This document shows positions 2,221 to 11,200 of a DNA stretch of 64,000 nucleotides, one piece after another. Both the position numbers and the translations under genes were made by a program. The first letter of the stretch is position 1; every line of letters begins with the position of its first letter. The notes below the pieces were generated by a model, which worked only from the letters and a program-made list of their open reading frames with translations, ran no database searches and was not told the origin of the DNA. This stretch comes from Halisarca cf. caerulea (lineage: Eukaryota; Porifera; Demospongiae; Chondrillida; Halisarcidae): assembly GCA_963170055.1 (NCBI GenBank), contig CAUJGJ010000332.1:2286001-2350000 (forward strand), written 5' to 3'.

Positions 2221-5200
2221 GTATGTAGATATGGTGGTGTAAGGTTATCCTTTTTCTATTTTGCACCTGCATACATATCTCATAGGCTTTTAAATATCAT
2301 TTTTGGCTGTGTGCATTGTGGGAGTTTCCACCATAGTACATTTCTCATTCTTACTTGTGTAAAAGACTTGTCTACAGTACGTGTGTACATTTCTAAGTTG
2401 CTATGGTTTTACCACTTCTTTTTTCTTGTGAATGCTGATTAATTTTGTTCTATTACTATTATGTGAGGACTACGTAGGTGTTTTTATGAGTTGTTACTAT
2501 TGGATCATGAATTACTAAACTGTATTGATAGGCTCAGAGTGGTTTTACCTTGGAAATGCCTTTGGGAGTTATTTCAAGCATTGAGAAGGTGGGACGATCT
2601 AAGAAGAAAGATGGATTGTATGGTTTGGAGCTCCATTGCAAGGTATAGTTTTGTATGCATTACTAAAGCATTTTCATCCTTTTTTATTTAAAATGTGCTG
2701 CATATTACAGTACAAATCAAAAGTAACTTACAGTCTCATGTGCAATCATTTACATGATTGCACAATGATTGTGCGAGACTGCCACAAGTGAAATCATGAG
2801 ATTGTGTGCATTAGTCGCACATGGTTGCACAATATCTCAAGCACAAGCATCTTAGCCATAGTCACAAGAATTAAAATTGTCAACTTAGGTACCTGGCTCT
2901 TACAAGTGTTCTTTCTGAAAAACACTCTTCTCCAAACTGGGTGGGCAGTCATCTTTCACGACAGTTTTGACTTTTCGTTCAGTCAGTTTGTAATCCTGAG
3001 CAGGGTTTCATTTAGGGGTTTTATTTATTATTAGGGGGGGGGGGGCATTAGGTTAGCCTTATTTTTGTTTAAGGAGATAAAATTGAATGCAGAACTCAAC
3101 TCAACACTATTAAGGAATATACAAGGAGAATGTAGTGTTTTGAAGACTTAAACAGCTATTCTTCTACCTTTTCTGTTCTACATTATCTACAATCTCTTCA
3201 AGGTCGCAATCCTGCAAAGTGTGTGGGGATTTGATGGCTATTTTAATAAAGTGTGAAAGATTAGTGTCACTTAAGCGGCTGCATAGACGAGATTTTATCA
3301 ACTTCATTTGAGAGAAGCTTCTCTCTACAGAGGTTGTGGCAATGGGAGTGAATAAACAAGTATGTTCAAGTTAGGAAAAGTTAGGTGCTGTGTGTCAGAT
3401 TAGCAACAGAAATTTGGTCATCTCATCATGTTGTTTGAGGACAACAAAGTGGTCTGAAAATGCACCAGAAGCAATCTCAGAGGGTATGAAAGTATAGATT
3501 AGCCAATGTGGAACGCCATGTTTGTAATCAAACTAGATGAGTTATTACGTACCAATTATACTCATGCGAGTACACATACGTACAAGCATTGTCACTCACG
3601 GGTGTTGCACGCTTACTACTTTTTTCACCACGGTATTGGGTTAACACATCATGCACCATAAGAAACCAGAAGCGCTAAACGGAATCCCTTCCTAGATACC
3701 ATAAGAATTGACATGCACTTTCACGCGCCACATGTCAAATTGTAGAGGTAGTTCGTTTTTTCACTATAACTCTTTTGCCTTTGCATCTGATACTGTGTAC
3801 TTTTGGTGACCTTTTGTCAAAAGGTGTGTATATAGTATCAAGCAAGCGCCTAATGTTTTGATAACAATTACCTTTTGTCAATTAAGTTAATTTGCTTGCT
3901 GTAGGAAGTATAGCACAGCTAACCAAGAACACCTCTCAATATGGCTCAAAACACTGCACACAGCCTAATAGGAAAAACAAGAAGTACCCACAACAAGTAA
4001 GTTATTGTATGACCAATTATGCATTGGCTCTTTATTGCACTCACCCCTCAGGCGCTTTGCACCCGAGAGAACTCAAGCAATAAATACACCAATGCATAGT
4101 TGTCATACAATAACTATTTTTGTTGTACGATGCGGCAAACATCAAAGCAAAAAAGTGTGCATTTGCATCTGATACTGCACACTTTGGTGACCTTTTGTCA
4201 AAAAGTGTGTAGTATCAAGCAAGCGCCTTGCGTTATGATAACAACTACCTTTTGTCAATTAAACGTGGACCGCAAGTACATAAACTATTGCGCGTATGAT
4301 CTTACGCGATCTGTTCACGATTAACGCGTTTCTCGAGTTCGCCCAGCTTCAACTGGTATAAAAGGGGCGTGAGGAGCATTGCAAATGGCCGTCTTTCTTT
4401 GCGATTTGAAAAAGCGCGCCTAAAGGGTGAGCAATAAACCCAAGGTTTAGGGACGGACAATCACTTGCAAACACTTGCATCCACCCGAATTTCGATCTAA
4501 TGACACTAAGCGCACTGGATTTGCTGTTTTCGTCCGTATCGCCGTCAAAATCGATTTTTAGAGGTTTTTCGGCGCGAAGAATGGCAGGGAGAGTACGAGG
4601 ACCAAATGAAAGTGACCAGCCGTCACATAGAAGACGAAGAGTTGATGTTGTGCACGTGTTAGGAGGAAGTTCTACTTCGCAGGAAGTATGTGTATACTGT
4701 TTCTGCGATCCGTGCGTGGGAAACCAGGCCTTCCTCCCAGATTTCATTAGAGGATCAGCCTCTCCAGATCTAAGCAATGTTGCTAGAAGATTCCGCCTAT
4801 ATAGGAAGGTCTGGTCCTATCTCAGGCGACTTGGGTTGTGGGATTTTCAACCCTACAAGGCGAGAAAGGGGAGGGCAGGACATGGCAATGCAGCAAGGGA
4901 CATCATACCTTGGTGCATAAAACAAGTATGTCTACAATAGTACATGTGAACAAACTGCAGTGTGCACAGACGATCACGTTTGACATATTCACAAATGCAT
5001 GCGTGTATTACAGGAAATACACACACACACACACACACACACACACACACACACACACACACACACACACACACACACACACACACACACACACACATAC
5101 ACATGCGCACACGCACACGAGTGACGCATTCACAAATGCATACAATCATCATGTATTACAGGAAATACACACACACACACACACACACACACACACACAC

Positions 5201-8200: not shown

Positions 8201-11200
8201 TCGCTATTACTGGCTCCCGGGCATTCGACAGCACCATTATGGAATTCGTAAAACTCCAGTAGCTCAACCAGAACATCTCTTGTACTTGCACTTGCACCCT
8301 TTCCTGGAATTTTGATCCTAATAGCGTCCAACCTACTGGATATGCCTAACATATCTCTGTCGTCGTGACAGTAGCACGATATTCTTGGACGCTTCGCAGG
8401 TATTCTCGCCATTCAGCACAATCAGGAGTTTCATTCGAAACAGAAAGCCCCTGACTGCAGTTCTACATTATATAGTGCGGCACGAACGAAATTCCTAGAT
8501 ATGCACACGTTGCTGGCGTCGATCGATCCAACTCGATAACAACCGTGGAGAGGTTAGAATATCAAAGCTCGGAATGTCGGGAAGAAATTAACGTGGTAGG
8601 TGTAGATTGAAGACTTTAAAATGCATTTCTTCTTCGAGCGGCGAAGCACCAGAAGCGTCGCTTTCGTCTTGAATTTATATTAGTAAGTACATAAGTGCAG
8701 CAATGTTATATTTGTATGTAGCAATAAGCATTAATATTAGTTTTACAATGGATTATTGGACGTAGTGTTATTTCCAGTATATCTCAAGGCCGCCATTTTT
8801 TTACAAACGCGTTTTGGAGAGGAGCAACGCCCCTTTTATACTCACGGTCCACGTTTAAGTCATTTCGCAAGCCATACAAAAGTATAGCCCAGCTTACCAA
8901 AAACACCTCACACAGCCTAATAGGAAAAACAAGTTAAGTGCCCACAACAAGTAAGTTATTGTGTGGCCAACACAATAACTTACTTGTTGTGCCCTTGGGA
9001 ACTCTGAGCAATGAATACGCCAATGCACAGTTGGCCATACAAAACTATTACACATAAGTAACAAACAAAGCAAATTGAGCGAACAGCAAACGTTTGAAAA
9101 CTTTTGACAAAGACACAAATCGCCTTTTCTGGAATTGAAAATTGCATTCAAATGTTTTGAAACTTACATTAATACTTAGGAAATCTTATATTTCTAATTT
9201 TTGATTGCATTTAGCAATATAACCGGGCTTGAGCATTTTTATAAGGAAAAATATCACTTACAGGGCTAAATCAGTAAAGAACACGGCAAATTCGCTCATT
9301 ACTTTTCCTCACCTGGTTATATCACTTCATGCAAGCAGAAATCAATAGTAACAAATATCCAAAATCCAATCATTGAACAAAAATGAAACTTCTAGGTTAC
9401 TTTTAGTTCAGAAGTGATTTTCATCAACCTATCAAAAAACAACCATTTTTCTGACGCAACATGATGATTTTAAATGATGTATGTAGCATTTTCTGCCAGT
9501 CTATTAATAAAACTTAGAATTTCCTCGAACCAGCTGTTGGTTTTTGCAGACAAATAATTGATTTCATTGTAACTTGTTCTTTTCTATCTGTTTTAGTTAT
9601 TGAAAACTCGGTATTTCATGGTTTATCTTCAAATGCGCATGCGAAAAATGTCACGTCATAGCAAATTTTTGATGACCTGTGACGTTTTTTTCTGTAACAT
9701 AGTTTACTACTTCTGGGACATGCATGCACAAATTCCGGAACAGCCATGAGTGGATATAAAAACACCCTGTGAAAAACTCTGTCTCAAAGTGTCCTCTATA
9801 CAGAGATTCCACTGTATCTCTTTCGCCCTCAAAGCATTGACTCCTTAGACACTATGCTAACTTCTTGCCATAACTGTCTCCAAGGTAAAGTGTTGCAGCA
9901 CAGTGAGAGGTAAGTCTTATGCGCAATACCTGTTCCTATTGTAATTATACTTGGGGATATAGCAGCTTTGGCATACTATGAAGTCACCCAGGAGCCCATT
10001 GTCCAAGAAGCAAACAACTCATAAATTGACTTCTGCACTTGCAGCAAGTTGGGGGGTATGCAGTGGCGGATCCAGGGGGGGGGGGGGGGGGGGGGCAGGG
10101 GGGCAGGGGGGCCTGTGCCCCCCCTTATGTTAAACTTCAAGTTTTTGAGAGGTAAGGCTAGTTCAAACATTAGAATAAATCACAACTACTGTATAAAGGC
10201 AATGCAATATTGATAAATCATAGATAACATTATAGAAATAATCATTTTAGATGATAAAAGGAGCCCTTGTCAGTCAATACTGATCCTCTTGCCAAGAAAA
10301 AAAGCAATACAATTCAATCCGCTCGCGATGGGCGGCCATTTTAATGCTGTTACTAAAAATAGAACAATTGCCAAATAACAATGAATCCACTAAAAAAAGG
10401 TCTTCAAGTTGCCTTTTTGTCATTAGCCCCCCCCCCCCCCCCCCCTCAGAGCTTTCCTAGATCCGCCCCTGGTATGGCATTGCAGGCTGAGGCGTTGTTC
10501 GATTTCTGTATCATCAACATTGACACCCATTCCCATGCTAACCATTGGCTTTGTCAGAGAAGGGGAAGAAGTACAATGAGCAAGCAAACAGGCACGCAGC
10601 TCCCTACTATCGATTGGAATTCCCGCAAATCAGATCAGACTTACGAAATCACCGCTCTACATAAACAATCGAGCTCATGGGAAGGTCATAAACGGATCTT
10701 ACCTCCCCAATGAAGACATAGTAGAAATACAAGCGTACAGCCCAACCCAACCTCTTGAATGTGATCACATGCACACTGATATCACTACTACCAACTGATA
10801 AGGCACAATTGAGGCAGCTGCATCCCCCCAACACTCACTTACTACTAGTGACACTCAACAAACTCAACCTCAGTCTGAATCTTCTCGGAATTCTTACACC
10901 CTTCCTCAATCAAACCCCTCTGACCCTGATTGACAACATATCAGGACCAACAGCTCACATGTGATCTACATAGGTCTCTGGAATGCACGCAGCATCAAAA
11001 GCTAATTATCTTTTTACAGACACTTGCATACAGCAAATCATTTGATGTTCTCTGCATAGCTGAATCCTGACTATCAAATGACATTGCTCATCAAGAAATT
11101 TTCACAACCAATTTCAGAATCTACCACAAAGACAGAAATGAGCATTGTGGTGGTGTCCTTATTGCCATATGACATCCGATCCCATACATTGTTCTACCTT

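Follow-up and report, generated by a model that had tools for sequence, protein, structure and literature searches.

The window analysed here, a stretch of 64,000 nucleotides from the sponge Halisarca cf. caerulea, carries at 4263–8854 a transposon that is complete and bordered by TTAA on both sides. Its two genes are convergent, one with 12 exons for a DDE transposase of 572 residues and a second one with two exons. Judged from its sequence, this is very probably a DNA transposon of the cut-and-paste type, both autonomous and recently active, that is related to the Kolobok superfamily and represents a distinct lineage with a diverged relative of KolX. In Kolobok transposons of the Kol0 lineage KolX is the ballast domain of P2X7, and P2X7 itself arose through fusion with KolX (Kojima & Bao 2022, PMC9587614).

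Element ends and copies

The left TTAA target-site duplication (4259–4262) is adjoined by the terminal inverted repeat ACGTGGACCG (4263–4272, plus strand), and the same repeat on the minus strand (8845–8854) adjoins the right TTAA (8855–8858). Including TTAA the arms comprise 25 nt and are 84% complementary. The terminal bases are 5'-AC...GT-3' and thus differ from the 5'-RR...YY-3' termini of Kolobok. A TATA-box-like GTATAAAAGGGGCGT at 4356–4370 (plus strand), present in 6/6 family copies, is the candidate promoter of the second gene. It is a perfect inverted copy of the GTATAAAAGGGGCGT near the right end (8827–8841, minus strand), the candidate promoter of the transposase.

Exact TTAAACGTGGACCG sites number 27 in the genome, compared with three for the backwards pattern used as control, and 16 of them form eight end-pairs with a spacing of 4.04–4.65 kb; the ends are therefore not due to chance. 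Six copies of the same family were compared. Their second-gene frame is intact in all six and the transposase frame in five, all introns are GT-AG, and the transposase coding sequences differ at 0–18 positions per pair. The TTAA duplication, which is typical of Kolobok, is found on both flanks and is reflected in empty sites with one TTAA. The insertion in the window interrupts a dispersed repeat (43 matches), and four uninterrupted loci were read, two of which show a single TTAA without change in length and two an altered TTAA. The altered TTAA lies at the matching place in L084 and L085, both old repeats, and was not taken as an excision footprint. For a sister copy (L074) all three uninterrupted loci have a single TTAA at the junction. 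The transposon is young and apparently working, and paired ends, exact gene models and single-TTAA empty sites bear out the first-pass annotation, which had described an apparently intact TTAA transposon at this position.

The transposase

The model proposed earlier, with 12 exons and an open frame of 572 residues, is exact (1719 nt, 11/11 introns GT-AG). All exons lie on the minus strand. Exon 1 (7943–8412) includes the start ATG, and neither in it nor elsewhere in the protein did a Pfam search yield a match to a THAP domain. Exons 2 (7732–7835) and 3 (7533–7633) are followed by exon 4 (7279–7462) with the first acidic residue, D230 (ICDARHD), and exon 5 (7117–7212) with the second, D296 (VAHDMN), as well as the DTWH motif D315–H318. 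Exons 6 (6949–7041) and 7 (6778–6878) precede exon 8 (6528–6680), which encodes the Cys/His cluster CHYTSLC, and exon 9 (6316–6435) with the third acidic residue, E442 (WIESFNH). Exons 10 (5955–6148), 11 (5786–5864) and 12 (5677–5700) complete the gene.

Relatives match the spliced protein throughout its length; P0025, for example, aligns with the entire query at 40% identity, and proteins from Halichondria panicea, Ephydatia muelleri, Montipora and Acropora are among these relatives. D230 is found in all 13 aligned transposase rows with a letter at that place, D296 and DTWH each in 15/15, and E442 in 12/15, the other three having G or S. Alignment to L076, a canonical Kolobok of the same genome, places the three acidic residues and DTWH as well. 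C389 and C395, kept in 14/14 rows with a letter there, probably correspond to the zinc-finger-like cysteines which in Kolobok lie between C/DxxH and E. Pfam assigns PF20700 (Mutator-like) to the window transposase at 1e-6, and this is the sole match for the protein and for all eight relatives scanned. A piggyBac-type transposase was considered and rejected on this assignment.

The window transposase is homologous to that of L076 (24.6% over 264 columns, E 3e-14). In the phylogenetic tree a branch with 100/100 support separates window-type from canonical transposases, though long branches meet in it. The tree comprises six canonical loci with a long enough frame out of ten tried, and 13 window-type relatives chosen from 29 (P0021–P0049).

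Two lineages in one genome

Canonical Kolobok elements with TTAA|AGGG ends, a THAP domain and a KolX positive for P2RX7_C also occur in this genome. The window lineage has TTAA|ACGT ends, an intron-rich transposase that lacks THAP and a KolX-like protein without a P2RX7_C match. The end words are distributed accordingly: TTAAACGT occurs in 23/30 window-type and 0/30 canonical loci, TTAAAGGG in 2/30 and 22/30, respectively, and three other TTAA words in 1–11 of 30 loci. TTAA|ACGT is found also at the KolX side of the subfamilies L019/20/28, L029/30 and L017/18. For the single-exon subfamily L077/L078 the KolX-side end was seen by comparison of two copies, while paired TTAA ends were not found. 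The second gene is convergent with the transposase in both lineages of this genome.

The KolX-like second gene

The second gene lies on the plus strand. Its exon 1 (4581–4925) starts at a position conserved in relatives and contains the C-x2-C-x-C-x2-C cluster (CVYCFCDPC); the intron (4926–5454), which an extensive (CA)n microsatellite occupies, is GT-AG in 6/6 copies, and exon 2 (5455–5526) encodes EIRQRFPNP...DHKWSPDV and ends with TAG. A two-exon gene with a cysteine cluster on the other strand had been predicted correctly. Its length of 165 residues depended on an upstream ATG (4500), the reading of which is not common to relatives outside the own family, and the conserved start gives a protein of 138 residues. 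This protein shows an arginine-rich N-terminus, the cysteine cluster and a conserved RDIIPWC...RFPNP tail.

Across subfamilies the gene evolves under purifying selection, with pN/pS of 0.29–0.50 at pS 0.74–0.89 in the 10 subfamily pairs without L029. Four cysteines are invariant in the window type and a fifth is kept in 8/12 rows, and canonical KolX of the same genome has seven invariant ones (five rows). Kol0 is defined by a KolX with similarity to the P2X7 ballast and seven conserved cysteines; here the cysteines are fewer and the similarity is C-terminal alone.

Relation to the ballast domain and alternative explanations

The first-pass annotation had called the second protein P2X7-ballast-like, which overstates this protein; the link to the ballast is supported in part, through its end. 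One may ask whether it is a relative of KolX at all or an unrelated small cysteine protein in the same place with a convergent tail. In favour of an unrelated protein, single-sequence and profile searches of Pfam and PDB sequences gave no match to P2X7, and none of the 12 aligned members matches PF20478 (P2RX7_C) up to the limit of E 5, at which most matches beyond about 0.1 are already removed by the HMMER filters; canonical KolX of the same genome reaches 6e-29. Furthermore, the first 100 columns score 13.3 compared with a shuffle mean of 12.9, most of the zinc-binding region is unrecognisable, and an earlier, less clean profile comparison gave probabilities of only 13.5 and 16.9%. Against it stand the hhalign scores of 35.3 and 37.0 to canonical KolX, far above the maximum of 100 column shuffles (22.0) and the reversed-profile control (11.2), the cleaned profiles (probability 76.4 and 69.6%, E 2–4e-5) and the last 40 columns alone (E 1.9e-6). 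Moreover, a homologous transposase accompanies the gene in the same convergent order in 24/24 window-type and 19/19 canonical pairs. We consider an unrelated protein improbable, and by sequence comparison the last ~40 residues of the window protein are significantly similar to canonical KolX that is positive for P2RX7_C. That a ballast-type domain travels as a transposon gene and gave rise to the tail of P2X7, as was also suggested for this element, is a concept that had already been published. As the window protein matches neither P2RX7_C nor P2X7 in the PDB and resembles KolX in its last ~40 residues alone, canonical KolX appears to be the better source for the P2X7 tail, in line with the published account, and the window lineage would be a divergent side branch. 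An exon-by-exon search of the genome for a P2X gene or a P2X–ballast fusion gave no PF00864 match, and its controls gave none either.

As a passenger, the second gene would be a captured host gene that is carried neutrally. Some transposase loci are indeed without it (3/27 among the matches listed, each with only one or two matching rows). On the other hand, both genes are present and convergent in all eight copies with exact paired ends, and among the matches listed 24/27 transposase loci have the second gene convergent within 2.5 kb, the pair recurring in many subfamilies; it is thus not consistently absent from other copies, which would have spoken against the association. Together with the purifying selection this makes a neutral passenger very improbable and indicates a conserved partner. 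Of the window-type KolX loci, 7/30 have no transposase match in their 1.5-kb flanks. Transposase and KolX-like distances are strongly correlated (r 0.62, 0/5000 permutations as high; 13 loci, two of the 15 given having been dropped for too few positions), and with one locus per subfamily the correlation is weak and not significant (r 0.31, 383/5000, 10 loci). The element could, finally, belong to a family that is already catalogued, in the supplement of Kojima & Bao (2022) or among the Kolobok or piggyBac entries of Repbase. Its transposase is Kolobok/Mutator-like, with PF20700 and DTWH as described above, and its ends start with 5'-AC, both of which argue against this, and we regard such an entry as conceivable but rather unlikely. 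The KolX/ballast concept is in print; the divergent lineage looks new.

Proposed mechanism and significance

Each gene would be driven from its own TATA promoter just inside one end, and the transposase would excise the element at the ACGT ends and reinsert it at TTAA. The KolX-like protein may assist the transposition complex in the nucleus as an accessory factor rather than being a neutral passenger. In a more far-reaching and rather unlikely reading, the element would be part of a deep lineage of TTAA transposons without THAP, whose transposase has relatives in both sponges and anthozoans. In this lineage the ballast core that binds zinc would have been lost from KolX or remodelled, and the R-D-I-I-P-x-C...R-F-P tail alone would have been kept. 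This tail, which is also the end of canonical KolX, might then be the part of the ballast which transposition needs, and KolX may partly take over the binding of DNA or of the complex for which THAP serves elsewhere. No functional study of KolX was found in the literature searched. The family to which the window element belongs is young, its two-gene copies being nearly identical and for the most part intact, and the coexistence of two KolX types and two end types in one genome represents a natural experiment. Because the C-terminal tail emerges from a comparison of both KolX types as the part that is kept, what the ballast module originally did can be tested in a transposition assay.

Comparison with known systems

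The ballast of P2X7 (PF20478, P2RX7_C; Rump et al. 2020, PMC7016195) shares, through canonical KolX, the tail motif R-x-x-x-P-x-C-x(4-6)-[IV]R-x2-[FY]P. It has seven reported zinc-binding cysteines, in contrast with the four invariant ones and the partly kept fifth of the window type, whose protein gives no direct P2X7 match and is not fused to a P2X channel. The canonical Kolobok L076 (G000:C369, 3624 bp, terminal inverted repeat AGGGACACTGCCAC 14/14) resembles the window element in its homologous transposase, convergent KolX and TTAA ends, but differs by a THAP ORF (1.2e-19), an uninterrupted transposase ORF of 609 residues, a P2RX7_C-positive KolX and AGGG ends. With Kolobok Kol0 (PMC9587614) the element has in common the TTAA duplication, the Kolobok-type DDE core with D-x-x-H and a downstream Cys/His cluster, and a KolX-type second gene. 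It deviates in having no THAP match, 12 exons, and a second protein that P2RX7_C misses and that is KolX-like over its last ~40 residues alone. Because its ends are 5'-AC...GT-3' instead of 5'-RR...YY-3', we suggest the denomination Kolobok-like lineage and not plain membership in Kolobok.

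Anatomy and mobility of the element

The transposon occupies positions 4263 to 8854 and is bounded by TTAA duplications at 4259-4262 and 8855-8858. Its termini are ACGTGGACCG and the terminal arms are 84% complementary over 25 nt, TTAA counted in. With duplications and inverted ends in place, the TTAA-flanked transposon proposed by the first-pass annotation is confirmed, as is its transposase gene, which lies on the minus strand and comprises 12 exons with GT-AG introns and a single, exact frame of 572 residues. The proposed two-exon gene on the plus strand is also present and encodes a KolX-like protein (KolX being the second protein of Kol0-lineage Kolobok transposons), but not of the suggested 165 residues. 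That length depends on an upstream ATG at 4500 that is not common to relatives outside the window family; from position 4581, the conserved start among the relatives compared, the protein has 138 residues. Both genes are convergent (tail to tail). Immediately interior to both ends is GTATAAAAGGGGCGT, a perfect 15-nt inverted pair kept in all six window-family copies, from which we infer a putative TATA promoter for each gene.

In the 194-Mb assembly (454 contigs) the terminal pattern has 27 exact sites, against 3 for a backwards control. Sixteen of these form eight pairs with full-element spacing and 11 are unpaired. All eight pairs (the window and seven others) were examined and each encloses both genes in convergent orientation, which is the co-occurrence that had been proposed as a check. 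Six pairs represent the window family; L074 and L075 are sister copies with a KolX-like protein about 55% identical to that of the window family. Among the six, the KolX-like frame is always unbroken, the transposase frame is unbroken in five (the exception, L073, is interrupted by a single internal stop), every splice site is retained and transposase coding sequences differ at 0-18 sites per pair.

The window insertion target is a repeat with 43 matches, among which four uninterrupted loci were examined. Two contain a single TTAA at unaltered length. In the other two (L084 and L085) the TTAA is altered, the place matching window position 4259 reading TTATAA or being devoid of TTAA; these changes are possibly footprints, or plain divergence. 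The surrounding dispersed repeat (3776-4262 and 8859-9000) has many genome-wide matches, and a second partial copy of it begins at 3776, with 58-nt and 28/29-nt blocks recurring 377-382 bp apart. L074 interrupts a reverse-transcriptase frame found unbroken at six other places, and a single TTAA is found in three of three uninterrupted target loci examined. Near-identical paired copies and single-TTAA empty sites argue that the window element is mobile, and recently so.

Elsewhere in the window, a probable non-LTR retrotransposon at 12827-15103 (minus strand) encodes a 758-residue reverse-transcriptase ORF (RVT_1, 1.1e-18), the N-terminal part of which includes a simple repeat coding for ERER.

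Transposase

The sole Pfam match of the window transposase is PF20700 (Mutator-like, 1e-6). It aligns with the transposase of L076, a canonical Kolobok element of the same genome (24.6% identity, E 3e-14), and the Kolobok D, D, DxxH and E have their counterparts in its D230, D296, DTWH (315-318) and E442. Across the 15 rows of an alignment, counting only rows with a letter, D230 is found in 13/13, D296, D315 and H318 each in 15/15, C389 and C395 in 14/14 and E442 in 12/15 rows (exceptions two G, one S). L076 contains a THAP frame (1.2e-19); no THAP domain was detected in the window transposase or in the eight relatives scanned. A tree of the DDE core (20 rows) parts the window and 13 relatives from six canonical rows with 100/100 branch support, with long branches meeting at this dividing branch. 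Altogether 30 relatives were found, the species-named ones originating from sponges (Halichondria panicea, Ephydatia muelleri, Amphimedon queenslandica) and anthozoans (Montipora, Acropora, Desmophyllum, Actinostola); on this basis the host is probably a sponge.

The KolX-like protein and the P2X7 ballast

The KolX-like protein has 53 matching stretches across the genome. At 23 of the 30 window-type loci retained (those of the lineage of the window element) an opposite-strand transposase lies inside the 1.5-kb flank, and at seven it is absent from it. Conversely, after manual clustering of the transposase matches listed, a KolX-like gene lies within 2.5 kb of 24 of 27 transposase loci among these matches, convergent in all 24 pairs, so the second gene does travel with the transposase; the remaining three loci comprise one or two matching rows each. 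Since pN/pS is 0.29-0.50 at pS 0.74-0.89 (10 subfamily pairs, L029 left out), the protein is maintained.

The annotated likeness to the P2X7 ballast holds in part. Window-type KolX gave no match to P2RX7_C (Pfam) or P2X7 (PDB), and its tail matches canonical KolX. When cleaned profiles of both types are aligned to each other, the scores are 37.0 and 35.3, at probabilities of 76.4 and 69.6%, compared with a maximum of 22.0 in 100 column shuffles and 11.2 for the reversed profile; less clean alignments reach 13.5 and 16.9% probability. The last 40 columns by themselves give 89.6% (E 1.9e-6) and the first 100 columns score 13.3, thus the detectable homology is the tail, where the canonical pattern R(K/R)V(A/I)P(S/A)C...IR..(F/Y)P is aligned. 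These comparisons point to a diverged KolX retaining the tail of the ballast module. The most divergent relative, P0019, reads CPHCHLAPCITA; its CITA resembles that of canonical KolX and it may be intermediate between the two Cys arrangements.

Comparison with canonical Kolobok elements

P2RX7_C detects 61 further stretches in this genome (54 above its cut-off), none overlapping the listed window-type matches. An L076-like transposase stretch is contained in 19 of the 30 canonical loci retained, with KolX convergent to each (L059 has a second such stretch on the other strand), and 11 of the 30 are detected with the window transposase as query. L076 is complete: TTAA followed by AGGGACACTGCCAC, a 14/14 inverted repeat and 3624 bp. 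TTAAACGT occurs at 23/30 window-type versus 0/30 canonical loci and TTAAAGGG at 2/30 versus 22/30, three arbitrary TTAA words giving 1, 5 and 11/30 versus 1, 5 and 5/30. Therefore two lineages coexist that differ both in their ends and in their KolX. Five canonical elements with TTAA followed by AGGGACACT and a P2RX7_C KolX are short (L049, L053, L060 and L062, 1378-1395 bp; L058, 2077 bp); no stretch resembling the window or L076 transposase was found in them and their KolX has stops in most. As short, mobile carriers of KolX, such cassettes could have delivered the last exon of P2X7.

Kojima & Bao 2022 (PMC9587614) identify the P2X7 ballast with the KolX of Kol0 elements, record this lineage from vertebrates, annelids, cnidarians and sponges, and describe P2X7 as a P2X4-like gene fused with KolX. 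Stand-alone ballast proteins range from sponges to fish in Rump et al. 2020 (PMC7016195), the main text of which is devoid of the word stem "transpos". Within the literature accessible, no other work linking KolX or P2X7 to Kolobok was found, aside from a review (PMC9319628) that mentions P2X7 and Kolobok once each. The transposon origin suggested for the P2X7 tail was hence right in kind but already published, and for the window protein it narrows to a diverged, tail-keeping KolX. One published defining feature of Kolobok is 5'-RR ends; the window element has different ends, and for this reason we call it a Kolobok-like lineage.
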